A stretch of DNA of 64,000 nucleotides from Candidatus Sulfurimonas baltica (GTDB taxonomy: Bacteria > Campylobacterota > Campylobacteria > Campylobacterales > Sulfurimonadaceae): contig NZ_CP054492.1 in the NCBI RefSeq assembly GCF_015265455.1, forward strand, positions 186,001 through 250,000, read 5' to 3'. Position numbers and translations under genes: made by a program. This document shows positions 15,097 through 30,247 of the stretch, piece by piece. Positions within the stretch are counted from its first letter, which is position 1. The number at the start of each line of letters is the position of its first letter. The notes below the pieces were generated by a model. The model searched no databases and was not told where the DNA came from. It saw nothing but the letters and a program-made list of their open reading frames with translations.

Positions 15097-16086
15097 CTAT
15101 TTTGTTCTTGTTCTAAGCAACAAAGAACTATACTCAGCTTGATTCATAACACCAATTAGTTCATCAAATTTATAAGCCAACTCACTTGAAGCCAAATCTT
15201 CATTAGCATACTCAAATCTACTCATATTAAGTGGCTCTTTTGTGTAGATAGCTACATATAAATCATAAGTATTTTCATCCTCTTTTACTAACCCTGCTTC
15301 AAAATAGTTTTCACTATCTTTTGAGGGGATTTGAATACTGTTTTTTATAGGTGCTGATGGTTGAAGTAGTGTGACAACACCATTTTCATAAACATTTAGA
15401 AGTGTAATATATCCATCTTGTTTAGAGTTAAATGTGAAGTAAAAACTATCTCCATCAGTTAAAACTGTTTTATTAGATTTAAACTCAAAATTATCATTTA
15501 TGTTTGTTTCATATAATTCCTCAAATTCATCATCACTGAGTAAAAATAAATACTCTTTATATTTTAGATACCAAGCTTCATTTCTTCTATCAAGTTTAAA
15601 ATTAAGTTTACAACCAAGTGAATCAGTTAGTTTTTTGACAAGAGGGGTTAGTAAAAGATAAGAGTTTAGTTCTTGTTTTGTACATTCAAAATTTCCAATA
15701 GTAGTTTTCACTCTATATGCCAAGTCAAGATTTTTATATTTTAGAGCTACATAAAACAAACCATCAATTTGCTCTTGCTTGATAGTTTTTACATTTTGCA
15801 GATTTAAGTTACTTGTAACTTTTAGTATAGCCTTACTGGTAGTTTTATCATCTGTTGAAGTAGAAGTGAAACTACTATCAACCTTACTAATCAAAGTTTG
15901 TGCTATATCTTCTTTTGCAGAGGCTTCTGCATCTTTAATTGTATTGCCATTACCATAACCTATTATTTCATATTTAACTGCTGATTGTAGCTCTCTGTTC
16001 TTATACCACTGTGGATAAACTTTTGGTTTTGGAGTTCCACAAGCTACAAACAATAAAGCCAGCAAGGCAAGAAAAGCTATCTTCAA
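15097..16086 (-). CDS. Lipoprotein with LPP20-like and DUF4384-like domains
   Basis: 329 residues starting at TTG. The start overlaps the stop of the upstream caspase gene (TTGA), so translation is coupled. Signal sequence with lipobox L-F-V-A-C near residue 16. Residues ~25-125 (P-Q-W-Y-K-N, I-G-Y-G-N-G, A-E-A-S-A-K-E-D-I-A) match the LPP20/Flp-assembly-lipoprotein pattern. Residues ~205-290 (G-D-S-F-Y-F-T-F-N-S-K-Q-D-G-Y-I-T-L-L) match DUF4384, a domain often found with caspase-like proteases. Probably an envelope accessory of the caspases; function not known. Confidence 0.75.
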   Translation of the reverse strand: MKIAFLALLALLFVACGTPKPKVYPQWYKNRELQSAVKYEIIGYGNGNTIKDAEASAKEDIAQTLISKVDSSFTSTSTDDKTTSKAILKVTSNLNLQNVKTIKQEQIDGLFYVALKYKNLDLAYRVKTTIGNFECTKQELNSYLLLTPLVKKLTDSLGCKLNFKLDRRNEAWYLKYKEYLFLLSDDEFEELYETNINDNFEFKSNKTVLTDGDSFYFTFNSKQDGYITLLNVYENGVVTLLQPSAPIKNSIQIPSKDSENYFEAGLVKEDENTYDLYVAIYTKEPLNMSRFEYANEDLASSELAYKFDELIGVMNQAEYSSLLLRTRTK

Positions 16087-18056
16087 AATTCCATAGCCTT
16101 ATTTCCACTCATTGTAGGTTCTTGTAATTTCATATCACCCATCTTATATGATTCATCTTTAACTTTAATATAGACATCACTATAAATATCTTGGAGACTT
16201 GTTCTCCCTTTTAGCATTGATTCCATTAAAAAATAACTAAATAATCTATACTTTTTCTCTTCATACATATTTGAATATTGATTATCTTTACCTGCTGTTA
16301 ATATAACCATTTTCTTTGTATCAAAAGTTACACTCTTAGGTTTTATTCTCGTTGCAGCCACACCCTTGATGACACTTACTCCATCTGTGGCACCACTAAA
16401 GCAACTATCTATAAAGGCTACCACTTTTGAAGCTTTACTATCTGCAAGTGTTTTATAAATATTTTGTAATTTAAAGAAGGGTGCTTCACTTATAAATTCA
16501 GGCTCAACATCTATTGGTAGGATATAAGGTTCATTTTTTTGTGAAACAACAGGGATCCCATGCCCACTATAATAGAAGTAGACAGTGTCTCCATGCTTTA
16601 CTCTTCTAAGTAATTTTTTCATTTTCATTTGAATTCTACCCATTGAAGCATTTTTGCTTGTTAGTTCAAGTGTATTTGATTCTGATATTCCTAATGTTTT
16701 TTGGGCTACATCTGTAAACATTTGGGCAGTGTTTTGTGAGTAAACTATATTATCTGTGTATTCATAGTTTTCAGCACCAATTACAATTAAATATCTTTTA
16801 TAGCTTACTTTTTTTTGTTGAAATTTTTTAACAAGAACTGCTATATTGTCACTAATTGTAGGTGCATCAAAAAGATAAGTTAATTGATAATTTTCTTGTG
16901 AAGCATCTTTTCCAAGACTGTTAGCTCTTTCTTGCCAATAAGTTGCTGTTTGTTTATTTGCTTTTACATTTATTCCATTTTTGTATATCCAAGCAAGATT
17001 TAGATTGGCTGCCACATTATCTTTTTCAGCAGCCTCTTTAAAAAGTTTAAGTGCTTTTTCAGTGTTTTTCTCTACACCATAACCATTTAAATATATCCAG
17101 GCTAAATTATTTTTAGGATCTGGAAAATCATTATTAGCCTCTATTATTTCTTCTAATAATTGTATAGCTTTTGAATAGTTTTTTTCTACACCCTGTCCTC
17201 TAAAGTACATAAGAGCTAAGTTGGATTTTCCATCAAGTGAAATACTGCTATCAACATCTTCAAATAGTTCTCTTGCTTTTTTATAATCTTTGATTGGTTT
17301 TTCTGTGTAATACATCCAGCCAAAGCTAGATTTTGCAAATCCATAACCATCTTTAGAAGCTTCTTCAAATAATTGTATAGCTTTTGAATAGTTTTTTGTT
17401 ACACCTTGCCCTCTATAGTACATATTTGCAAGAAAAACCTTTGAATTAGTGTCACCAATATTGGAACATTCTTCAAATAATTGTATAGCTTTTGAATAGT
17501 TTTTTGTTACACCTTGCCCATCTCTATACATCAGGGCAAGATTATATTTTGAACCATAATTACCAGCATTTGAAGCTTCTTTAAATAATTTTATAGCTTT
17601 TGAATAGTCTTTTGTTACTCCTGAGCCATTCAGGTATATATTTCCAAGTTGATATTTTGAACCTATATGTCCACTGTCAGATGCTTCTTCAAAATATTGT
17701 TTTGCTTTTGTGTAGTCTTTTGTTACTCCCAAGCCATTCAGGTATATAGTTCCAAGTTGAAATTTTCCTTCTATACTTCCACCATTTGCTGCTTCTTCAA
17801 GATATTGTTTTGCTTTTGTATAGTTTTTTGTTACTCCTGAGCCATTGACATACATATACCCAAGTAGATATTTTGACCAAGCCTCATTACTACCACCTTT
17901 TGCAGCTTCTTCCAAATAATATTTTGCATCTTTATAGTTATTATTTTTTATATAATTATCAGCCTTCACTGCCATATCATAACTATAATCTGCCAGTAGT
18001 TGAACTGGTAATTGCAACAGTGTAAAAAGCAATAAGATTTTTATTTTTTGTTTCAT
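16083..18056 (-). CDS. Exported Sel1-repeat protein with C-terminal caspase-like protease
   Basis: 657 residues. Signal peptide (residues 1-22, cut near L-L-A-D). About nine Sel1-type TPR-like repeats follow at ~45-375 (A-x-M-Y-x-x-G-x-G-V-x-K-N-Y-x-K-A), a protein-binding solenoid. Residues ~415-655 are a C14 caspase-like domain with Y-Y-S-G-H-G (His ~498) and I-D-S-C-F-S-G (Cys ~551), both catalytic motifs intact. The repeats are so similar that recent internal duplication is likely. Start supported by 'aagga'. It lies between the DUF1566-caspase gene and the coupled lipoprotein. Predicted periplasmic or envelope-associated, unusual for caspase homologues; substrate unknown. Confidence 0.88.
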   Translation of the reverse strand: MKQKIKILLLFTLLQLPVQLLADYSYDMAVKADNYIKNNNYKDAKYYLEEAAKGGSNEAWSKYLLGYMYVNGSGVTKNYTKAKQYLEEAANGGSIEGKFQLGTIYLNGLGVTKDYTKAKQYFEEASDSGHIGSKYQLGNIYLNGSGVTKDYSKAIKLFKEASNAGNYGSKYNLALMYRDGQGVTKNYSKAIQLFEECSNIGDTNSKVFLANMYYRGQGVTKNYSKAIQLFEEASKDGYGFAKSSFGWMYYTEKPIKDYKKARELFEDVDSSISLDGKSNLALMYFRGQGVEKNYSKAIQLLEEIIEANNDFPDPKNNLAWIYLNGYGVEKNTEKALKLFKEAAEKDNVAANLNLAWIYKNGINVKANKQTATYWQERANSLGKDASQENYQLTYLFDAPTISDNIAVLVKKFQQKKVSYKRYLIVIGAENYEYTDNIVYSQNTAQMFTDVAQKTLGISESNTLELTSKNASMGRIQMKMKKLLRRVKHGDTVYFYYSGHGIPVVSQKNEPYILPIDVEPEFISEAPFFKLQNIYKTLADSKASKVVAFIDSCFSGATDGVSVIKGVAATRIKPKSVTFDTKKMVILTAGKDNQYSNMYEEKKYRLFSYFLMESMLKGRTSLQDIYSDVYIKVKDESYKMGDMKLQEPTMSGNKAMEF

Positions 18057-18075
18057 AGTAAATTTCCTTAATTTT

Positions 18076-19953
18076 TTAAAGCTCTAATCCAATATTCCCA
18101 TTATAAACAGGAACTTGTTCATAACTTGCACCCATTTCATATGACTTCTCTTGGACATTTGATTTTACATAGTCATATAATCTTTGAGTATTTGAATTGT
18201 TTTCAATTAATCCTCTCATTACAAAATATGAAAAAAGTCTATTGCCTTTTTCATCATATTTGTTTGAGTATTGAGTTCCACTTCCAGCACTTATAACTAT
18301 CATCTTACTTGTGTCAAAAGTCACACTCTTTGGTTTAATCCTTGTTGCAGCTACACCTTTTATAAGTGCTTGGTTATCTGTGCCACCTGAGAAACAACTA
18401 TCAATAAAAGCTACCACCTTAGTTGCTTTTGAATTGCTCAGAGATTTATAAATATTTTGGAGCTTGAATCTTTCATCTGTTAGATAAGCTGGATTCATAT
18501 CTTGTGCCAACATATATGGTTCATTATTTTGAGATGGGACTGGAATACCATGTCCACTATAATAAAAATAGATAGTATCTCCACTTTTTACTCTTCTGAG
18601 CATATCTTTCAAGTTATAATCTATTTTAGCACTGGTAGCACCTTGGTTTATTAGGGTTCTAACATTGTTCTCAGGTATCCCAAGTCTTTTTTTCATAACA
18701 GATTTAATTTGTTCAGCACTATTTTCTGAATACTTGACTGAATCTGTAAACTCATAATTTTCTATTCCAACTATAAAAAGCCATTTGGTGTTATCAGTCT
18801 TACCAGATTTGGAATTTTCTAAAAACTTAGGAATGTCATTTTGATACTCTTTAATTATATTTTCACCATACTCAATTTGCTTATATATTGCCACTTTAAT
18901 ATCATTGGGCTTATAGTCTGCATCTCTCAATACAGCTGAGTATATTTTCCCTTCATATGGAACAACAATATTTTTTAAAAAAACCTTTTCATCTCTATAT
19001 TCATAAATTACCTTTACTTTTTTCTCATACTTGTAAAAATCTTTGGCAATTTCTAATGGAATATTTATAGCTATATCTTTGGAAAACTGTCCTTCACTAG
19101 ATGTTAATTTACCATAAAACAATTCATTATCAGCATCATAATCAATTGATTTTATTAATGGTTTAGCATAAATTTTATTATATGCTTTACTCATATTTAC
19201 ATTGGTAATTTCTTCTATATTATTTTTCACATAATCTACTCTTTTTTTAAAATCTGATGTTTTTTCAAACTTATCTTTTTCTAAATTATATTTTTTGAGG
19301 ATTAAGTGGTTAGTTATTATAGAGACTTTTTCTTGATCCTCTAAGATATTGTTAAAAGCTAGATTACTTAATACTTCTGTGTTATCACTTATGCATCTAA
19401 CATAATAAGGAAATGCACCATAAGGATTTACAATACTTTTTGTTTTAAAACCTACAACACTTCCACTGGCAGCCCAATAATAACTATCTAAATAATATTT
19501 AATATTTTTTTGATCTAAATCCACCAATTGTTTTTCAGATGGCAAATACCAGTTTCCATGTCCTGAAAAGTTAAGGTTTTTGCAATACTTTTCTGCATCA
19601 TATAAGTTAACTCTCACTGTTTTGGTATCAATATTGTCTTGCCATATTATGTTGCCTTGATTAACTACATTATTAATTGAATTTTGTATGTTTTTGTACT
19701 TTTCTGGATATTTTTGTTTAGAGTAATTTGTGATAATTTTTTGATATTCATTATTATCAATTTCAGACTTACTTCCATCCCAAACTATTTTATTGCTTAA
19801 TACTTCTGTGCTATCTATGCTTGTTACTTTTAGTTTTGATGCTTCTGGTTGATTGTTGTGAGTGTTATCCAAACTTGTAACTTTTGGTTCTATATTTCCA
19901 CATCCAGTAGCTAAAAGTAAGATTAATGAAGTTGTAAAAAGTTTTAAAAGCAT
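18076..19953 (-). CDS. Lipoprotein: DUF1566 lectin-like domain fused to caspase-like protease
   Basis: 625 residues. Lipobox A-T-G-C at residue ~18. Residues ~58-190 match the small DUF1566 proteins at 24355/24913: same E-Y-x-K-x-I-x-x-Y start, then I-W-Q-D-N, N-W-Y-L-P-S-E-x-x-L, Y-Y-W and Y-Y-V-R-C. This is a C-type-lectin-like fold. A linker (~190-390) shared with the other caspase genes follows, then the C14 domain with Y-Y-S-G-H-G (His ~467) and I-D-S-C-F-S-G (Cys ~520). The fusion is direct evidence that the separate small proteins work with a caspase. First gene of the leftward operon, 19 nt before the Sel1 gene; start supported by 'aagga'. Confidence 0.88.
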   Translation of the reverse strand: MLLKLFTTSLILLLATGCGNIEPKVTSLDNTHNNQPEASKLKVTSIDSTEVLSNKIVWDGSKSEIDNNEYQKIITNYSKQKYPEKYKNIQNSINNVVNQGNIIWQDNIDTKTVRVNLYDAEKYCKNLNFSGHGNWYLPSEKQLVDLDQKNIKYYLDSYYWAASGSVVGFKTKSIVNPYGAFPYYVRCISDNTEVLSNLAFNNILEDQEKVSIITNHLILKKYNLEKDKFEKTSDFKKRVDYVKNNIEEITNVNMSKAYNKIYAKPLIKSIDYDADNELFYGKLTSSEGQFSKDIAINIPLEIAKDFYKYEKKVKVIYEYRDEKVFLKNIVVPYEGKIYSAVLRDADYKPNDIKVAIYKQIEYGENIIKEYQNDIPKFLENSKSGKTDNTKWLFIVGIENYEFTDSVKYSENSAEQIKSVMKKRLGIPENNVRTLINQGATSAKIDYNLKDMLRRVKSGDTIYFYYSGHGIPVPSQNNEPYMLAQDMNPAYLTDERFKLQNIYKSLSNSKATKVVAFIDSCFSGGTDNQALIKGVAATRIKPKSVTFDTSKMIVISAGSGTQYSNKYDEKGNRLFSYFVMRGLIENNSNTQRLYDYVKSNVQEKSYEMGASYEQVPVYNGNIGLEL

Positions 19954-20215
19954 TTATAGATTCCTTAAAGAAAATGATTATTTGTTAGATTTTATCATAT
20001 AGAACTTAAAAAACAGAAAGTTAGGACATATGTATATCCCACTAGTTTTGTTGCTCCTTTCATTCAATCACTGTTATCCATAAGTATGTATTTGCCTGGC
20101 AATCACTATTAACACTTTCTTTTTTACAAACTCTATCAACTGTCCAAAAATTTTATCACATCTCCTTTTTTTGACACTTTGTACTTAAAATAGATATTCA
20201 AAAGGAGTACATAAA
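19954..20215. promoter_or_regulatory. Divergent promoter region of caspase operon and relaxase, with partial iteron
   Basis: 262 bp between divergent genes. At 20024-20055, ggacata..tatcccactagtttt..tgctcc is a third, partial copy of the iteron/hairpin-module border seen at 13329 and 13402. Regions upstream of MobV relaxases usually hold oriT, and none of the sequence here contradicts that, but I cannot name the nick site. Confidence 0.4.
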
Positions 20216-21592
20216 ATGTCAACCAGTTTCATTCAAATCAAAGCCATCAAAACAAAAAAACATCTACAAGAAAGGGTTACACACATAGTCCAACCATACA
20301 ACAGGTTCAAAGGAGTATTTGATAATATCATCTATATTAATGAGGAATTTTCTCAAGATACTGAAACAAAAAACATTCCTGATGCCAAAGCAACAACAGT
20401 ATTAAGAAGTAAATTAACCAGAACAATTGGAAGCTATAAAAATCAGCTAAACAAACAAACTTTAAAACTAAAAAATGCACAATTTATTTCAGACCAAAAA
20501 GGAATAAGCAGAGCTGAATCTGCTATTGCAAGGAATGAAGCAAAAATCAAAGAGCTAACAGAACAGAGGGATTCAATTTCAGACAGCAGAAAAGATAATG
20601 CTGGAGGCAATAAAATATCTTACAGAGAAATAGTATTTAGCATTACAGGTGTTAGACACTTACTTGAAGATGAACAGTACTCCAATAGACTATACAATTT
20701 ATCAAGACAGTTTTTAGAAGACAATTTAAATGCCAAACTCATCAAGGCAGTAATCCACAGAGACCAGCCAGGTAATGTACAGCACATCCACTATTTAATA
20801 GAATATGATGCAGATAATAGTTTCACAAATGATATGAAATTAAAATATAAAGATGATGAGAAACACATTCAAGATTTAGCTATTGAATGGGAGCAAAAAA
20901 TTAAACAGAGTAGAGTTGTAGAGCAATTTCATATAGATTATGAGGATATAGTTAAAAATGGAAAAAGAGAATATAAAACTCTTGCAAAGTTTAAAAGAGA
21001 ACAAAAAGAAACTCTCCTAGAAGTTACAGAGGAAGCCAAGAAAGAAACTCAACAACTAAAATCTAAACTTATCAAAAAAAGTAAAGACTCAAAAGGGAAT
21101 ATTGATAAGGTAAAAGTTTTAAACAGTTTGCTAAACACTGTTAAAGCTATGAAAATAGAGTTTAAATTGCTTGTGTCAAGTCTTAGCACTAATAAACTAC
21201 TTAAAAAAAATAATCAGTTAAATAGTACAGTTGAAAAACTTACATCAGATTTAGAGAGAAATGAGAGATTGTCAGATGAGTTTTATCAAGAAAATGTCAA
21301 GAATTTTGACAAGAGAGTTAGAGCTAAAAACACTGCACTGGTTAGGTCAGAACATAAACTCTCTAAACTTGAAAAATCACACACAGATTCAGAAAGGGTT
21401 AATAAAGAAAATATAACTAAGGTTGCTAAACTAACTTTATCAAATCAAGAGCTTCAAGCAAGAGTAAAATCTCTTGAAAGTCAGCTTGGAATTATGCAAA
21501 GAGCAAAGATCAAAATAGGTTCTACCTTGAAGAAACTAAGAAGTGGGAAAAGAGAAAGCAATATGAGCTTAATTGACTTGATAGGAAAATAG
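20216..21592 (+). CDS. MobV/Pre-like relaxase (mobilization protein)
   Basis: 458 residues. The N-terminal ~230 residues carry the rolling-circle relaxase pattern: conserved start F-I-Q-I-K-A-I-K, then A-V-I-H-R-D-Q-P-G-N-V-Q-H-I-H-Y with the H-x-D...H-I-H metal-binding motif. The remaining half is a long charged coiled coil (~250-440), typical of Pre/Mob proteins. A relaxase nicks at oriT and pilots the strand during conjugal transfer; with no secretion genes nearby, the element would be mobilized by a helper. Start preceded by 'aaaggag'. Sequence identity to known families could not be measured; an IncQ-type MobA is less likely because no primase domain is seen. Confidence 0.72.
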   Translation: MSTSFIQIKAIKTKKHLQERVTHIVQPYNRFKGVFDNIIYINEEFSQDTETKNIPDAKATTVLRSKLTRTIGSYKNQLNKQTLKLKNAQFISDQKGISRAESAIARNEAKIKELTEQRDSISDSRKDNAGGNKISYREIVFSITGVRHLLEDEQYSNRLYNLSRQFLEDNLNAKLIKAVIHRDQPGNVQHIHYLIEYDADNSFTNDMKLKYKDDEKHIQDLAIEWEQKIKQSRVVEQFHIDYEDIVKNGKREYKTLAKFKREQKETLLEVTEEAKKETQQLKSKLIKKSKDSKGNIDKVKVLNSLLNTVKAMKIEFKLLVSSLSTNKLLKKNNQLNSTVEKLTSDLERNERLSDEFYQENVKNFDKRVRAKNTALVRSEHKLSKLEKSHTDSERVNKENITKVAKLTLSNQELQARVKSLESQLGIMQRAKIKIGSTLKKLRSGKRESNMSLIDLIGK

Positions 21593-22077
21593 AGTAAATT
21601 TTTACTATTTTTGTGTTGCCCTATGTTTTATGTGCAATATTGAATAATGGTATAAAAAACAGTGGAAAAGTGTTGAATTAGAGTTAATAAAAAGAAATAT
21701 GTGAAGCTGGAATACAGACAAAATAATCAGTTCAGCAGATAAGCCTGTTACTATGGTTCTTCTTTCTTTATAAACCCCTATACTAATAAAACATAATCTC
21801 AATGTTTATTGAAGCAGACCTCTTTTCTTATTAACCCTCTACTCTTGTATTAATATCTCTATAAAGAGATTTAATTAAGAGAGTATCTTAAAGACACTCT
21901 TAAAGATACTCTTAGGAGAGCTAAAAAACTATGGTGATATTAGGTCTTTTTAGGGGAATAATGAGTCCTCAATGGGGTATTTTTAAGTCTTATATGGGGT
22001 GTTAGTATGTCCTGCTAAGTTTAATATGTTAGAATACAACAAATAATAATCATTTTACTAATACAAGGGATTAACAA
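21593..22077. other. Non-coding region with right origin-like module and cargo promoter
   Basis: 485 bp between relaxase and the first gene of the rightward caspase operon. It contains the inverted iteron/hairpin module (21770-22016). The stretch after it ends with 'aaggga' six nt before the ATG at 22078. Confidence 0.5.
21770..22016 (-). repeat. Iteron and hairpin module, right copy (inverted)
   Basis: The reverse complement matches 13328-13580 block by block: gacatacta, taccccattgagga, cccct..aagacct, ttttttagctctcctaagag, hairpins, aataagaaaaga and gggtttataaag. The two copies enclose 8.2 kb with the leftward caspase operon and the relaxase. They diverge at single positions and small indels, so the duplication is not recent. 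Confidence 0.65.
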
Positions 22078-24291
22078 ATGCTTTTAAAACTTTTTTTATT
22101 TTCAGCTACTTTATTTTTTATTAATGGATGTATGGATAGACAACCAGAAGTCAGAACCAGTAAAGTTAATAATAGTGAAATATCTTATGCAAAAAATATA
22201 GATGTATCTGTTGATGAAAAAACTGCTGAAATGAATTGGAATAATTTTGATAATGTGAAGATAGATAATGAGCCAACAGAGCTATTGAATTTCAATAATT
22301 TAACTTGGGCTAACAAAGAAAAAAACAATATTGCAACATGGAAGAAAGCCTATAAATACTGCACTGATCTTTCAAATCATGGTATTTCAAATTGGAGACT
22401 TCCAAGCCAAAATGAGCTAAATTATATTAGAGAAAATAGAAGTATATTTTCTAATATTTCATTAAATTATTATTGGAGTTCTGATACTAAAGATATTGAC
22501 AATATACCAAATGCAATTGCTGTCAATATAAAAACAGGAAGTGCTGATTTTGATTTTCAAAATAACCAAAATTTATTCTTATGTGTAGGTGATAAATTTG
22601 TCTTGTCTGAGATAGATCAAATGGCTTTATACAAACAAAGGATGGAAGTATTAACTAATAAATTGATATCAAAAGCATTGGAAGTAGAAAAACCAAAGTT
22701 TCCTAAAAAACCAGATACACCAATAGTTCCAAAAGCAAAGAATCTTATTAAAGGTGAATTTGAAAAAACTGCTATGTTTGAAGATAGAGTAGCAGTAGAG
22801 AAAAATAATAGATTACAAATAATCACTTCTATTGAAAAACAATATACCAAAGATGTCAAATTATATAATTCTGAAATCAAAAGATTAACAGATGAATATA
22901 ACAATAAAGTGGCAGGAAACAAAAATAAAATTAACTTAATTACATATGAGTCAATACTTAAAGCATATTATCTAGTTTATGGAATACCTTATTTAGATAA
23001 AATTTTAAAATATGATGCAGATAATGAAAAATTTTATACTAATATAAAATCTACAAAAGGTGGATTTGAAGAAAAAATTGAAATAATTGTACCAATCAAT
23101 GAAGCAGAAAAATTCAAAGAAAATTTAAGCTTACTAAAAATTAATGTAATATTTACATATAAAGATAAGAAATTAGTGTTAAAAAAAATAAACATTAAAA
23201 ATTCTGAAATCACTTACATAGCAACCTCTACTATTAGAAATTATCAAGATAGAGCAGTATCAGTAGCAGTAAATAATGGGAGTCTTAATCTTCCAGCTAC
23301 TCCACTTCTCAGCTCTTCTTTGGCTATAAGTTCAGCTGATTATGATATTGGAGAAATAAACTATTCAAAAGATCCAGAAATAGCAAGACTGCAAAAACAG
23401 AAGTTTGAACTTGAAAATAGGCAAAGAGATAAAAAACAATCTCTTGCAAAAGCAGATCTATTAAGACAGCAAAAACTTGCCCTTGAAGCTCAAATAGCAC
23501 TCCTTGAACAAACAAAGGGAGGAGTCAATGATATTCCAAGTCTTCTTAAAAAATCAAAAGCTAAAAAAGTAGATAATACTAAATGGCTCTTCATAGTAGG
23601 AATAGAAAACTATGAATATACAGACCCTGTGGCATTTTCAGCTAATAGTGCAAAAGAGTTTAAATCTGTTATAGAGAAAAGACTTGGTATCCCAGAGAGC
23701 AATATTAGAACCCTCATAAATAGAGGAGCTACTAGCTCAAAAATAGATTATAACTTGAAAGATATGCTCAGAAGAGTAAAGAGTGGGGATACTGTTTACT
23801 TTTATTACAGTGGACATGGCATTCCAGTTCCAGCACAAGACAATGAAGCATATATGTTGGCACAAGATATGAATCCAGCTTATTTAACAGATGAAAGGTT
23901 TAAGCTTCAAAATATTTACAAATCTCTGAGCAACTCAAAAGCAACTAAGGTAATAGCTTTTATAGATAGTTGTTTCTCAGGTGGAACAGATAATCAAGCA
24001 CTTATAAAAGGTGTAGCTGCAACAAGAGTTAAACCTAAGAGTGTGACTTTTGATACAAGTAAGATGATAGTTATAAGTGCTGGAAGTGGAACTCAATACT
24101 CAAATAAATATGATGAAAAGGGTAATAGACTTTTCTCATATTATGTTATGAGAGGATTGATTGAAAACAATTCAAATACTCAAAGATTATATGATTATGT
24201 AAAATCAAATGTACAGGAAAAGTCATATGAGATGGGTGCAAGTTATGAGCAGGTTCCAATATATGATGGGAATATTGGGTTAGAGCTTTAA
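22078..24291 (+). CDS. Lipoprotein with DUF1566-like domain and C-terminal caspase-like protease
   Basis: 737 residues. Lipobox I-N-G-C at residue ~17. A DUF1566-like domain at ~75-170 (L-T-W-A-N, N-W-R-L-P-S-Q-N-E-L, Y-Y-W-S-S) is present, but its C-terminal part has drifted from the V-R-C-V ending. A basic helical region (~195-285) and a coiled coil (~440-475) precede the C14 domain with Y-Y-S-G-H-G (His ~580) and I-D-S-C-F-S-G (Cys ~631). The segment 23491-23819 is identical at the DNA level to 26423-26751 in the next caspase gene. It heads the rightward operon, directly behind the inverted origin-like module. Predicted envelope-anchored protease; substrate unknown. Confidence 0.88.
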   Translation: MLLKLFLFSATLFFINGCMDRQPEVRTSKVNNSEISYAKNIDVSVDEKTAEMNWNNFDNVKIDNEPTELLNFNNLTWANKEKNNIATWKKAYKYCTDLSNHGISNWRLPSQNELNYIRENRSIFSNISLNYYWSSDTKDIDNIPNAIAVNIKTGSADFDFQNNQNLFLCVGDKFVLSEIDQMALYKQRMEVLTNKLISKALEVEKPKFPKKPDTPIVPKAKNLIKGEFEKTAMFEDRVAVEKNNRLQIITSIEKQYTKDVKLYNSEIKRLTDEYNNKVAGNKNKINLITYESILKAYYLVYGIPYLDKILKYDADNEKFYTNIKSTKGGFEEKIEIIVPINEAEKFKENLSLLKINVIFTYKDKKLVLKKINIKNSEITYIATSTIRNYQDRAVSVAVNNGSLNLPATPLLSSSLAISSADYDIGEINYSKDPEIARLQKQKFELENRQRDKKQSLAKADLLRQQKLALEAQIALLEQTKGGVNDIPSLLKKSKAKKVDNTKWLFIVGIENYEYTDPVAFSANSAKEFKSVIEKRLGIPESNIRTLINRGATSSKIDYNLKDMLRRVKSGDTVYFYYSGHGIPVPAQDNEAYMLAQDMNPAYLTDERFKLQNIYKSLSNSKATKVIAFIDSCFSGGTDNQALIKGVAATRVKPKSVTFDTSKMIVISAGSGTQYSNKYDEKGNRLFSYYVMRGLIENNSNTQRLYDYVKSNVQEKSYEMGASYEQVPIYDGNIGLEL

Positions 24292-24354
24292 TTTTAAGGA
24301 AATTTACTATGAAACAACTAATAGTTATAGATATTATATTTAAGGAAAACACAA
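24292..24354 (+). pseudogene. Relic of a Sel1-caspase gene start
   Basis: Downstream of the caspase stop, aaggaaatttactatgaaac (24297-24316) equals the leader and first codons of the Sel1-caspase gene at 18056, in the same position after a DUF1566-caspase gene. The open frame then decays. This indicates the rightward operon once had the same gene order as the leftward one before the small DUF1566 genes took this place. Confidence 0.6.
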
Positions 24355-24885
24355 ATGTTTTTAAAGCTTTTTTTATTCTTACTTCCTTTTAGTCTATTTG
24401 CAGGAGAAGTTGTTTGGAGCAGTGACGCCAGTAGTGAAATTAGTCAAAGTGAGTATGACAAAGTTATAGAAGAGTATGTTGATAATAAGTATCCTGAGAG
24501 GGTTGAAGCTTGGGAAAAAAAACAAAAAGAGATACAAAATAATACAATCTCCTTAGATGGTTTGATGTGGCAAGATAACAAAGATGCTATATTCATAGAA
24601 AGAGACTGGATTGGTGCAAAAGAGTATTGTAAAGATTTAATTCTTGGGGGTTTTAATGACTGGAGACTACCAAATATAGATGAGCTTAAAAGCATATTGG
24701 ATAAAAACAGAAAACCAACTATAAAAAAAGAGTTTAAAAATACTGTCTCTGGCAGTTATTGGAGTTCTACTACCACTGCTAGTAATACTACCGGTGCGTG
24801 GCGTGTCTACTTCAGCTATGGCGGTCAGAGCAGCTTCAGTAAGACTTATTACTATTATGTTAGGTGTGTTAGGGCAGGACAGTAA
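24355..24885 (+). CDS. Exported small DUF1566 protein 1 with hypervariable C-terminus
   Basis: 176 residues. Signal peptide (1-16, F-A-G-E). N-terminal E-x-x-Y-D-K-V-I-E-E-Y segment, then a DUF1566 domain: L-M-W-Q-D-N, W-R-L-P-N-I-D-E-L, S-Y-W-S-S-T-T, A-W-x-V-Y-F, Y-V-R-C-V-R-A-G-Q. This is a C-type-lectin-like fold of the kind diversified by DGRs. The C-terminal 35 codons (24751-24855) differ from the paralogue at 24913 almost only at adenine positions. Start supported by 'aagga'. Its N-terminal region also occurs fused to a caspase at 18076-19953, so it likely serves as the sensor partner of a caspase. Confidence 0.88.
   Translation: MFLKLFLFLLPFSLFAGEVVWSSDASSEISQSEYDKVIEEYVDNKYPERVEAWEKKQKEIQNNTISLDGLMWQDNKDAIFIERDWIGAKEYCKDLILGGFNDWRLPNIDELKSILDKNRKPTIKKEFKNTVSGSYWSSTTTASNTTGAWRVYFSYGGQSSFSKTYYYYVRCVRAGQ
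24751..24855 (+). other. DGR-type variable region (VR) of DUF1566 protein 1
   Basis: 105 nt aligned without gaps to 25303-25407: 23 differences in 16 codons, 22 of them with A in one copy, the remaining one G versus C. The following tail (tat gtt agg tgt gtt agg gca gga cag taa cttt g) is identical in both genes and is the likely homing-initiation segment. Sequence upstream of 24751 differs by ordinary changes, including T/C. Confidence 0.8.
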
Positions 24886-24912
24886 CTTTGATTTTTGTAA
24901 GGATACAATAAA

Positions 24913-25437
24913 ATGATTTTAAAACTATTTTTATTTATACTACCCCTTACTCTTTTTTCAAGTGAGATGGTTTGGAGTGGTGATGTTAGTGGTGAGCTGA
25001 GTCAAGCGGAGTATGACAAAGTTATAAAAGATTATGTTGACAAGAAGTATCCTGAGATAGTGGAAGCTTGGGCCACCTTTAATAATGGTTTGATGTGGCA
25101 GGATAATAATGGTTTGATGTGGCAGGATAATGAAGATGTTTTGTCAACTATGAAAAATTGGTCAGGAGCAAAACAGTATTGTGAAGATTTAACTCTTGTG
25201 GGTTTTGATGACTGGAGATTACCAAATATAGATGAACTTAAAAGTATAGTGGATAAAAACAGAACACCGGCTATAAAAAAAGAGTTTAAAAATACCATCT
25301 CTAACGGTTATTGGAGTTCTACTACCAATGCTAGTAATACAGCACGTGCGTGGAATGTCTACTTCAGCAATGGCGGTCAGTACTACTACGGTAAGGCAAG
25401 TAACTTTTATGTTAGGTGTGTTAGGGCAGGACAGTAA
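24913..25437 (+). CDS. Exported small DUF1566 protein 2 with hypervariable C-terminus
   Basis: 174 residues, paralogue of the previous gene. Signal peptide (1-17), E-Y-D-K-V-I-K-D-Y segment, and a DUF1566 domain ending N-F-Y-V-R-C-V-R-A-G-Q. It carries a perfect 24-bp tandem duplication that repeats N-N-G-L-M-W-Q-D just before the domain. Its variable C-terminal codons are rich in Asn and Tyr (A-W-N-V-Y-F-S-N-G-G-Q-Y-Y-Y), closer to what an adenine-rich template would encode. 27 nt after the first paralogue and 28 nt before the caspase gene; start after 'aagga'. Probable exported ligand-binding partner of the caspase. Confidence 0.88.
   Translation: MILKLFLFILPLTLFSSEMVWSGDVSGELSQAEYDKVIKDYVDKKYPEIVEAWATFNNGLMWQDNNGLMWQDNEDVLSTMKNWSGAKQYCEDLTLVGFDDWRLPNIDELKSIVDKNRTPAIKKEFKNTISNGYWSSTTNASNTARAWNVYFSNGGQYYYGKASNFYVRCVRAGQ
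25081..25128 (+). repeat. Perfect 24-bp tandem duplication inside DUF1566 gene 2
   Basis: aataatggtttgatgtggca plus ggat occurs twice head to tail (25081-25104 and 25105-25128), keeping the frame and adding eight residues. Absent from paralogue 1. Confidence 0.95.
25303..25407 (+). other. DGR-type variable region (VR) of DUF1566 protein 2
   Basis: Partner of 24751-24855. Every codon that differs between the two can be derived from one template by changing A only, e.g. agc/tac from AAC, cgt/aat from AAT, ggt/cgt from AGT, act/gca from ACA. The identical tail follows from 25408. Confidence 0.8.
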
Positions 25438-25465
25438 CTTTGCTATTTGATTTTTCTTTAATGGA

Positions 25466-27223
25466 GTGTTTATAATGATAAAAAGAGTTTTTATTTTAGG
25501 TTTGATGGTTTTTGTTTTGTCTGGGTATGCAAGTGGTCTGAAAAATCCATACAACATCAATCAATCAGAAAAGTTTACAGCTTTAACAAATTATCTTATT
25601 GGGTTAGAGTTACAACCAAGTAAACCAACCTTGCCAAATAAACCAAAACAGCCAACTATACCATTAGCCAAAAAACTTACAAAAGGTAAGTATGAAAAGA
25701 CTGGTACTTTTGAGCAAAGAGTAAAAAAAGAGAAAGCAAAAAGATTAAAAACTATAAAAACTTTAGAAGTAAATTATGCGAAAGATGTAAGAGTATATAA
25801 TGATGAAGTAAAAAAACTTACAGATAACTACAACAATGAATTGGCTAAAAAACAAAAAAAAATAGATGATATAACTTTAAAAGCTATGGAAAAAGCTTAC
25901 TCAATTGTTTATGGAAAACCATACTTAGAAAATAGTTTAAAGTATGATGCAGATAGTGAGACGTTTTTTGGAGTGGTAACATCTACAAAAGGTGGTTTTA
26001 GCGAAAAGGTTGCTGTAAGAGTTCCAATAGACCAAGCAGAGAGTTTTGAAAAAAACATAAACTCTTTAAAAACAAGTGTAGTTTTTGACTACAAAGATAA
26101 TCAACTCGCTTTAAAAAAGATAGTTGTAAAAAAAGCAAACACTCCTTATATAGCAATGCTAAGTGATATTAATTTTAAAAGTGAGAACATAAGTGTAGCT
26201 GTTGGCGGCGGTAGTTTAAATCTGCCTGCTTCACCACTTCTAAGTTCATCCTTAGCTGTGAGTGCAAGTGATTATAGCATTGGCGAGGTTAGTTACTCTA
26301 AAGACCCTGAAATAGCAAAACTTCAAAAACAGAAGTTTGAGTTAGAAAAAAATGTAAGATATAAAAAACAAACCCTTATTAAAGAAGCAGAGTTAAGAGC
26401 ACAAAAACTTGCACTTGAATCACAAATAGCACTCCTTGAACAAACAAAGGGAGGAGTCAATGATATTCCAAGTCTTCTTAAAAAATCAAAAGCTAAAAAA
26501 GTAGATAATACTAAATGGCTCTTCATAGTAGGAATAGAAAACTATGAATATACAGACCCTGTGGCATTTTCAGCTAATAGTGCAAAAGAGTTTAAATCTG
26601 TTATAGAGAAAAGACTTGGTATCCCAGAGAGCAATATTAGAACCCTCATAAATAGAGGAGCTACTAGCTCAAAAATAGATTATAACTTGAAAGATATGCT
26701 CAGAAGAGTAAAGAGTGGGGATACTGTTTACTTTTATTACAGTGGACATGGTATTCCAGTTCCAGCACAAGATAATGCTCCATACATGTTAGCCCAAGAT
26801 ATGAATCCAGCTTATATAGATGATGAAAGATTCAAGCTTCAAAATATTTATAAAAAACTTTCTAATTCAAAAGCTACAAAAATTGTAGCTTTCATAGATA
26901 GTTGTTTTAGTGGGGGAACAGATAATCAAGCCCTTATAAAAGGTGTGGCTGCAACAAGGATTAAACCTAAGTCAGTAACTTTTAATAAGAATAAAATGGT
27001 GGTTATAAGTGCTGGAAGTGGAACTCAATACTCAAATAAATATGATGAAAAAAGTAATAGACTTTTCTCTTATTATTTAATGAGAGGTCTCATTAATAAT
27101 AATACTGACATAAATAGATTATATGACTATGTTAAATCAAATGTTCAAGAGAAGTCTTATGAGATGGGTGCAAGTTATGAACAAGTTCCTGTTTATTCTG
27201 GAAATATTGGATTAGAACTTTAA
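25466..27223 (+). CDS. Exported caspase-like protease without its own DUF1566 domain
   Basis: 585 residues. Signal sequence ending L-S-G-Y at residues 16-19, where the lipobox Cys of the related proteins is Tyr (one-base change), so it may be released rather than lipid-anchored. Basic helical region (~40-130), coiled coil (~285-330), C14 domain with Y-Y-S-G-H-G (His ~428) and I-D-S-C-F-S-G (Cys ~480), ending G-N-I-G-L-E-L like its relatives. It lacks the DUF1566 domain of the other two, but two small DUF1566 genes lie directly upstream: the split version of the fused architecture. 329 bp are identical to the caspase gene at 22078. Confidence 0.88.
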   Translation: MFIMIKRVFILGLMVFVLSGYASGLKNPYNINQSEKFTALTNYLIGLELQPSKPTLPNKPKQPTIPLAKKLTKGKYEKTGTFEQRVKKEKAKRLKTIKTLEVNYAKDVRVYNDEVKKLTDNYNNELAKKQKKIDDITLKAMEKAYSIVYGKPYLENSLKYDADSETFFGVVTSTKGGFSEKVAVRVPIDQAESFEKNINSLKTSVVFDYKDNQLALKKIVVKKANTPYIAMLSDINFKSENISVAVGGGSLNLPASPLLSSSLAVSASDYSIGEVSYSKDPEIAKLQKQKFELEKNVRYKKQTLIKEAELRAQKLALESQIALLEQTKGGVNDIPSLLKKSKAKKVDNTKWLFIVGIENYEYTDPVAFSANSAKEFKSVIEKRLGIPESNIRTLINRGATSSKIDYNLKDMLRRVKSGDTVYFYYSGHGIPVPAQDNAPYMLAQDMNPAYIDDERFKLQNIYKKLSNSKATKIVAFIDSCFSGGTDNQALIKGVAATRIKPKSVTFNKNKMVVISAGSGTQYSNKYDEKSNRLFSYYLMRGLINNNTDINRLYDYVKSNVQEKSYEMGASYEQVPVYSGNIGLEL

Positions 27224-28037: not shown

Positions 28038-28946
28038 TTAGTAGATTGTAATTCCACTTGCTTGATCATAACTATTTTTTAACAGTGTATTATTAGCCTG
28101 TGCAGAAGCTGATACTACTTGTTGAGATACACCAGCCTTTTTAAGCTCAGTATCTACAGTCCAAAAATTAATATCATTTTGCTTGTTGTAGCTTACTTGT
28201 TCAGAATCAGTTATAGTAATTCCAAACACTGATAAGTCAAAATCTTTAATAGTTTTTTTAATTTTATTAAGTTGTCTTGTGCCAATGGCCTTAGTATTAA
28301 TTCCAAGCTGTTCCAACACATAAACTAACTGAAAATTAATAAAATCATTAGCTAATACATACCTCACAAATGATTTAATAGTGTCATTTCTGATAGCTAA
28401 AATTGCTGGAAGATATTTATCATAGTTGACTAGGGTATCAGTCTTAAAACTATTGATATAATCACTGCTAAACTTAATAATAAACTTATTATTTTTTGAG
28501 CTATATTGTGCTTTGTCTAGTATATGAATATCTGACCAACTATTTGAACTACCATAAAATCTTTCAAGGCTAATTACAACATCAACTAAATCTTGTATCT
28601 TTTCTTTGAGGAAATCTCTATTCTTGCCACCTTGACTCTTTCCTAATTTCTTCAAAATAAAATACAAACTGAACTCAGCATAGTGCTCATTATTTGTAGT
28701 TCTTTTGAGTAGCTTTTCAGAAAAAATCACATCAAGTATATCTCTATGAGATTGACCAAGAAGTCTATTCCTTATCTTGATTTTATACTCTCTATTTTCA
28801 AAAATAGAACCTTTATTTCCATTACTTACAAAATTTTTGTAAGTATTAGTACTTTGTATATTGGAATATGGCAAGAAAATAGAGCTTCTAGTAGTATCCA
28901 CACTGCTTGTTGCATTACTTAATATATCTAATAAAATTTTACTCAT
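28038..28946 (-). CDS. Putative replication initiator (Rep_3/RepC-like winged-helix protein)
   Basis: 302 residues, basic. The layout suggests two winged-helix units: Y-K-I-K-I-R-N-R-L-L-G-Q-S-H-R-D-I-L-D-V-I-F (from ~60) and a second near R-N-D-T-I-K-S-F-V-R-Y-V-L-A-N-D-F (from ~190). These are as in plasmid initiators that bind iterons. It lies 11 nt behind the helicase gene, reminiscent of the repA-repC pair of IncQ-like replicons, and iteron-like arrays are present in the element. Assignment rests on layout and context, not on a firm motif. Start is ATG at 28946 after a weak 'aggag'. Confidence 0.55.
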   Translation of the reverse strand: MSKILLDILSNATSSVDTTRSSIFLPYSNIQSTNTYKNFVSNGNKGSIFENREYKIKIRNRLLGQSHRDILDVIFSEKLLKRTTNNEHYAEFSLYFILKKLGKSQGGKNRDFLKEKIQDLVDVVISLERFYGSSNSWSDIHILDKAQYSSKNNKFIIKFSSDYINSFKTDTLVNYDKYLPAILAIRNDTIKSFVRYVLANDFINFQLVYVLEQLGINTKAIGTRQLNKIKKTIKDFDLSVFGITITDSEQVSYNKQNDINFWTVDTELKKAGVSQQVVSASAQANNTLLKNSYDQASGITIY

Positions 28947-28957
28947 AATCCTATCTC

Positions 28958-30247
28958 CTAAAATGGTATTTCATCACAGTCATAAACAGCTGTGTTGTTA
29001 TTTACTTCTACTGGTGCTACTAATTCTTTGGAAACTATTGGTTGATTGTCTTCTGATTTAGGAGCAAATATTTTAATCTCAAATACACCATCCCCTGGAT
29101 CAAAATGATTAGCTTTTTCTACTTTGCAATATCTGTAAATCTTACTCATCTTTTGCTCAACTTTAACAGCTTTACCTTTGCTATCCTTGATAGGTTTTAT
29201 TCTTGGGTCTATTGCACTAATAGAGTAGTGCACCCTAACAGCATCAATAATAGCACTGGCCCCCCTTACACTGGTGGTTTTATTACCATTGGCATCATTA
29301 GAACCTTTATTATGATGGTGTATTATGATAAAAGTTTTACTTTCTTCTTCTGCCCAAGTATTTAACAAATTAAAAAAATACCTAACTTCTCCATTGTTAT
29401 TTTCATCAATATTTCCCATAAATTGAATAAGTGGGTCTAATAGAATCACATCATAAGAAACCAATTGTTTTTTAAAGAACTCAAAAAACTTACTTGCTTG
29501 AAGATTTCCATTTCTACCTTTATCCACAAACCCCATTGCATGACCTTTACCAGCCAAATCAAAATTAATATCAATTTCATTATTATAAATTGCTTTTAAT
29601 TCAATTCCTCTATTTTTTACAAAACCTGCTGTATCCTCTGAAAACCAAGAAAATATATTTATCCCTTCATATTCTTTTTTTAATTTAGAGAGTAGTAAAA
29701 TACCCAAGTAGCTTTTACCCACTCCACCACCAGCACTTATTAGATTTATTTCATTTTTCTGTAATGGTAAAAAATCAGTTAAATAAAAAGCAGGTTGCTC
29801 TATTATTACATCAGATAGATTCTGAATATCAAGTGAAAAAGTACCTTCATTTGATTCCTTTTCTAGCTCTGAAACTAAACTCCCTAATTCTTCTATAACT
29901 TGACTTGAATTAATATCCTTATCAATAGTAGAGTACTTCTTTAAAGCTTTTTCAATAGCTTGTTTCTTAGTGATTTCTTTCATTCTATGGACATATCTTG
30001 TAATATCACTTACTGAATTAGATTCAATTTTATCTTGATAGTCATCCATATATTTTGGATCTAAATCAACTAAGAGTTCTTTTAGTTCAATATAACCATC
30101 TTCATCATATTGTGCTTTCATATTTGTAAACATTTCTTTATTTTCTTTTACAGTAAAATCATTAACAGTTAAGTCAATGTTTTCCATTAAAGAGTTGTCA
30201 TTTAGAATAGAGTTTAATACTGTTGATTCATTATTAATATGGGACAT
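28958..30247 (-). CDS. RepA/DnaB-type replicative helicase
   Basis: 429 residues. N-terminal ~110 residues resemble the DnaB N-domain (S-T-V-L-N-S-I-L-N-D-N-S-L then D-F-T-V-K-E-N-K-E-M-F). The C-terminal RecA-like ATPase has Walker A S-A-G-G-G-V-G-K-S-Y near residue 170, Walker B Y-D-V-I-L-L-D-P-L near 265, and the following I-I-H-H-H-N-K-G. This is the AAA_25/RepA pattern of plasmid hexameric helicases. It probably unwinds the origin of E2 after excision or during transfer. The first gene of the operon, at 30479, ends two nt upstream. Confidence 0.85.
   Translation of the reverse strand: MSHINNESTVLNSILNDNSLMENIDLTVNDFTVKENKEMFTNMKAQYDEDGYIELKELLVDLDPKYMDDYQDKIESNSVSDITRYVHRMKEITKKQAIEKALKKYSTIDKDINSSQVIEELGSLVSELEKESNEGTFSLDIQNLSDVIIEQPAFYLTDFLPLQKNEINLISAGGGVGKSYLGILLLSKLKKEYEGINIFSWFSEDTAGFVKNRGIELKAIYNNEIDINFDLAGKGHAMGFVDKGRNGNLQASKFFEFFKKQLVSYDVILLDPLIQFMGNIDENNNGEVRYFFNLLNTWAEEESKTFIIIHHHNKGSNDANGNKTTSVRGASAIIDAVRVHYSISAIDPRIKPIKDSKGKAVKVEQKMSKIYRYCKVEKANHFDPGDGVFEIKIFAPKSEDNQPIVSKELVAPVEVNNNTAVYDCDEIPF

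Follow-up and report, generated by a model that had tools for sequence, protein, structure and literature searches.

The two adjacent DUF1566 genes of the window (the whole 64,000-nucleotide stretch of Candidatus Sulfurimonas baltica DNA that was analysed) are very probably former targets of a diversity-generating retroelement (DGR), rewritten from a shared A-rich template after their duplication and since then deprived of the DGR core, i.e., reverse transcriptase (RT), Avd and template repeat (TR). In the proposed sequence of events, a tandem duplication would first have produced genes 1 and 2. Error-prone reverse transcription of the common template would then have rewritten the final ~105 nt in each copy, altering the template-A positions alone and leaving the remaining positions alike, before RT, Avd and TR were lost. 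Because the sequenced genome contains no core, the variants in the two variable regions (VRs) are most likely frozen. The products would be exported C-type-lectin binders situated beside exported caspases, some of which appear to carry the same lectin domain. The features are collected in Table 1.

Table 1. Features of the DUF1566 gene pair and its surroundings, in window coordinates.
Feature	Position	Strand	Remarks
DUF1566/Lcl_C gene 1 (176 aa)	24355..24885	+	Pfam Lcl_C E 6e-28; very probably an orphaned DGR target
DUF1566/Lcl_C gene 2 (174 aa)	24913..25437	+	Pfam Lcl_C E 2e-31; very probably an orphaned DGR target
VR1 (gene 1 variable region)	24751..24855	+	23/105 sites unlike VR2, 22 with A
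VR2 (gene 2 variable region)	25303..25407	+	Compared with VR1 and with the congener TR
Tail after VR1: IMH-like end TATGTTAGGTGTGTTAGGGCAGGACAG, stop codon, 5 nt	24855..24890	+	36 nt, identical to 25407-25442
Tail after VR2	25407..25442	+	Identical to 24855-24890
Caspase-domain protein with N-terminal DUF1566-like domain, directly upstream	22078..24291	+	Peptidase_C14 E 3e-16, Lcl_C E 4e-15
Caspase-domain protein, directly downstream	25466..27223	+	Peptidase_C14 E 2e-17
N-terminal extension of the type of genes 1/2 and DUF1566-like domain, fused to a caspase	18076..19953	-	From the translation

Realignment of the two VRs confirms the coordinates given for them in the earlier note, its gap-free alignment and its count of 23 differences, 22 with A and one G/C. 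Specifically, there are 10 A/G, 9 A/T and 3 A/C pairs, a single C/G pair and no C/T pair. The differences are distributed 12/8/3 over the three codon positions and alter the amino acid in 15 of the 16 unlike codons, which sit at positions that are variable throughout the DUF1566 family, as judged from its consensus. A single template with A can yield all 23 differing sites, the C/G site included, so that the derivation of the differing codons from one A-rich template, as suggested earlier, holds throughout. The identical tail, put at ~35 nt in that note, comprises 36 nt after the last VR difference and reaches past the stop codon. The divergence upstream of the VR is indeed ordinary: 60 of 294 sites differ between the genes, only 33 of them with A and 15 of them C/T, and the involvement of A is significantly higher in the VR than upstream (Fisher P = 2.5e-4; binomial at the upstream rate 2e-5). 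At third codon positions, 3 of 44 differ in the VR plus tail, all with A, which leaves 0/44 non-A differences, compared with 33 of 117 upstream, 16 of them without A. The variation thus follows what is expected of a DGR target, being restricted to template-A sites close to the 3' end. As the two sequences and the congener TR described below show, a single A-rich template wrote both VRs, with the IMH-like tail retained.

To trace the template itself, we rebuilt it from the two window VRs and searched for it through the genus Sulfurimonas, which led to DGR cassettes in G089, G008, G102 and other genomes, each cassette combining DUF1566 targets with a TR, an Avd gene and an RT gene. The best foreign match (85%) lies beside a reverse transcriptase on contig G089:C84 (L068, 3,991 bases), where a DUF1566 target, Avd, TR, RT and a second DUF1566 target make up a complete cassette with A-only TR-VR differences. 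The TR of G089, SNNYWSSTTNANNTDNAWNLNFNNGNQNNNNKTNNNYVRCVRAGE, in which AAY codons are abundant, played no part in rebuilding the template and therefore provides an independent test. It aligns with both window copies without gaps over 135 nt. Of the 23 sites at which these differ, 21 carry A in the TR, compared with 49 of 105 sites overall (P = 7e-7, hypergeometric; 2e-5 in a permutation matched for codon position). Because of this agreement with an independent TR, and with cassettes now found in congeners, we regard the DGR footprint claimed in the earlier note as right. Both exceptions fall in a single codon, which is GAC in G089 and probably read differently in the lost TR of the window. 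Over a slightly shorter stretch, the TR of G008 has A at 18 of 20 differing sites.

The layout of G089 (target1–Avd–TR–RT–target2) recurs in G008 and in G102, where the contig ends short of any target1; G057 has RT, Avd, two targets and a TR-like stretch, which brings to four the other genomes of the genus with a DGR. In the TR-VR pairs of G089 and G008, 34-44% of the A sites are changed, with a single non-A change in each pair. The best PDB match of the congener RT is 8ub7 (E 3e-35), which we take to be a DGR RT, and the congener Avd matches NF033474 (E 4e-6) and PF22296 (E 3e-8), in both cases below the cut-offs of those models. In the IMH region, the G089 TR reads GAG, whereas the two VRs of G089 and the two of the window all read CAG; by homology with the congener TR, the VR end is therefore slightly unlike the IMH* of the TR. 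A hairpin follows just 3' of the IMH after target2 of G089 and after both targets of G008 and G106, and is absent after both window genes and after target1 of G089; some DGRs have no such hairpin. A search of other genera of the order for a nearer TR left the congeners as best matches. In L080 (G102:C74, 1267-2901), the RT is seemingly whole, yet 9 non-A sites distinguish the TR from target2, which could mean either an inactive DGR or a TR that has drifted.

The own genome is a single contig of 2,737,757 bases and 100% complete. An RVT_1 profile search of it gave no match, while the same search was positive in 54 of 199 relatives as well as in control genomes, and the congener RT finds there at best a stretch with stops (E 0.42), not a DGR-type RT. 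The best match of the congener Avd across the genome has E 1.3, too weak for an Avd, and a search with the rebuilt template recovers no TR, just VR1 and VR2 themselves. Remnants of RT or Avd were seen neither near genes 1 and 2 nor elsewhere in the genome, and specifically no RT remnant lies upstream of gene 2, its place in the congener cassettes; an Rfam search of the window gave no match. RT, Avd and TR are thus missing from the assembly, not from the window alone, which extends to the whole genome an absence that the earlier note had reported for the window. Since each of the three was looked for and none was found, we file the genes as a former DGR target pair and not as a DGR. The search for TR and RT that the note had proposed came out negative in the own genome and positive in congeners, where Avd and DUF1566 targets accompany them. 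The note had also left open whether diversification was in trans or past; we favour the past over the trans alternative because one complete contig contains no reverse transcriptase.

Genes 1 and 2 are sisters in a tree of their non-variable part (support 98/90), gene 2 being a tandem duplicate. The last homing would be later than this duplication, because the VR backbone is identical, without any non-A difference, while the rest differs by ~20%. How long ago this was is only loosely bounded, by 0/44 non-A changes at third positions. In gene 2, a 24-nt tandem duplication (NGLMWQDN x2, at about 25089-25136) directly precedes the lectin domain. The products are probably exported: the N-terminus of gene 1, MFLKLFLFLLPFSLFA, is signal-like when the translation is read. 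Among solved folds, an AlphaFold2 prediction (mean pLDDT 85) most resembles the C-terminal domain of Legionella Lcl (8q4e; Z 13.2, with 26% identity and an rmsd of 2.2 over 106 residues), and it also matches Mtd (Z 8.9), a classic DGR target. Both proteins are accordingly predicted to be C-type lectins with the VR at the C-terminus, in line with the C-type-lectin-like fold that had been attributed to DUF1566 beforehand.

How well do other explanations account for these observations? A DGR located on a replicon or in strains outside the assembly might still act on the targets in trans: like those of intact cassettes, their VRs are without non-A differences, and incomplete loci of Thiohalocapsa are described as being diversified in this way (PMC10907252). 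However, the single complete contig gives no RVT_1, RT, Avd or TR match, the congener core sits in cis with its targets and the hairpin after the IMH is missing, and we consider continued diversification very unlikely. The core would also have left no remnant if the pair had been diversified in another species and horizontally transferred without it, in which case this lineage never had a DGR. Candidate plasmid replication genes lie nearby (28038-30247), but DUF1566 genes with a similar N-terminal extension sit upstream of related caspases in G018 and G043. The locus therefore has the look of a resident of the genus, and such a transfer is very unlikely.

It could further be argued that the genes are ordinary duplicates under diversifying selection on the lectin binding face, the A bias reflecting chance and composition, since the differing codons occupy positions that vary across the DUF1566 family. 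This account would have to explain A in 22 of 23 differences and no C/T where the upstream part has 33 of 60 with A and 15 C/T, VR third positions that are identical bar three A-type changes, and a congener TR that predicts the differing sites; moreover, the older tandem pairs of G105 and G032 show many C/T and non-A differences. We regard it as highly improbable. Past homing from a common template, followed by loss of the core, remains the best explanation, and we infer that an RT was formerly present in this lineage.

Pairs of DUF1566 targets in the genus form a decay series. The core between them is whole in G089, G008 and G057. G106 has kept its TR and lost the middle of the RT, and its target1 has a stop and six non-A changes. 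Only RT pieces lie between the targets in G072, G116, G063, G077 and G206, Avd and RT stubs in G051, an Avd stub in G204 and nothing in G061; G109 is a further member. Single broken genes may be assembly errors, several of the genomes being fragmented drafts, but the series rests on no single one. The window pair stands at the 'nothing' end for machinery and at the fresh end for its VRs.

At the G106 locus (L069, G106:C6, 719-2986), which looks half-decayed, only the two ends of the RT are present, Avd is apparently frameshifted and the stop lies in the VR of target1. In several cassettes (L068, L075, L080, L081, L210) target2 starts within the 3' end of the RT gene, an overlap which would explain why C-terminal remnants of the RT persist beside target2 after loss of the core. 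The congener target2 that overlaps the RT has an N-terminus of the type MKxILLxMIGLS, and gene 2 has none of this kind. Excision of the core from between genes 1 and 2 was considered and dropped as unproven: the two are sister duplicates and not a target1/target2 pair of the congener type, gene 2 does not have the target2 N-terminus, and no RT remnant was found. The lost core may have sat beside the two genes or elsewhere.

Four Peptidase_C14-like caspase genes, two per strand, surround the DUF1566 pair (16083-27223); two are fused to DUF1566-like domains and one has, by eye, Sel1-like repeats. In the fusion directly upstream of gene 1 the Lcl_C match exceeds the Pfam cut-off; the minus-strand fusion has a weak Lcl_C match at 19462-19656, below the cut-off, and its caspase part shares 83% identity over 256 aa with the downstream caspase. 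Further copies occur at G000:C1:2278054-2279962. DUF1566 genes also adjoin caspase genes in G018, G061, G204 and G212, and G057 has a caspase-family N-terminal domain beside DUF1566. This recurrence suggests, more weakly than the other results, that the lectins may act as binders for the flanking exported caspases, in a sensor role.

Two minus-strand genes at 28038-30247, of which the second matches DnaB-N and AAA_25, may serve in plasmid replication, and the start of a gene at 20216-21592 is relaxase-like by eye; perhaps an integrated plasmid adjoins the caspase cluster. Two carriers were tried and rejected: phage records contain no DUF1566 relative and viral contigs no RT relative or match to the VR tail, and plasmids contain only distant DUF1566 proteins, with <40% identity among the matches listed.

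Taken together, the Sulfurimonas core might be a disposable diversifier, repeatedly lost beside paired targets, with the frozen lectins kept as sensors for exported caspases and the non-A differences of orphan VRs dating the losses; we put this forward tentatively, as a generalization that may well prove wrong. DGR surveys commonly begin with the reverse transcriptase, so targets without remaining machinery escape them. Two paralogous VRs alone can reveal a lost DGR. They allow most of its template to be reconstructed, for comparison with a sister species, and their non-A differences can limit how long ago homing last took place. Sulfurimonas thereby allows whole, broken and vanished DGRs to be compared within one genus, and the adjoining caspase genes may indicate the purpose of the variable lectins. 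In our literature search, Sulfurimonas and DGR were found together only in passing, in the context of Helicobacter pylori.

DUF1566 is the commonest Pfam domain reported among DGR targets (PMC6642488). The window pair resembles such DGRs in several ways: the final ~35 codons of a protein with the C-type-lectin fold vary at A positions only, the IMH-like tail is invariant and has a G/C difference from the congener TR, and there are kin with Avd-TR-RT cassettes; it differs in that its genome has no RT, Avd or TR. Legionella Lcl differs in its collagen-like repeat, which the window proteins do not have. The DiGReF survey of 2012 (PMC3521204) described A-only changes in DGRs whose RT is dead and interpreted these cases as recently inactivated. 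As in the window pair, A-only VR changes there outlast the RT, but those cases keep the TR and a broken RT, whereas the window genome has neither, so that the VRs and a sister species are the only sources for the template. Thiohalocapsa PB-PSB1 has degenerate loci, trans-diversified targets and caspase-type effectors nearby (PMC10907252), and thus shares with the window incomplete loci, C-type-lectin targets and neighbouring caspase-type effectors; however, it has full DGRs elsewhere in its genome, of which the window genome has none, and the window lectins and caspases, unlike those of PB-PSB1, look exported. DGRs with dead RTs are therefore already known, as are degenerate loci, targets diversified in trans and effectors of the caspase type; new are the orphan pair in a complete genome without machinery, traced via the TR of a sister species, and the genus-wide decay series.
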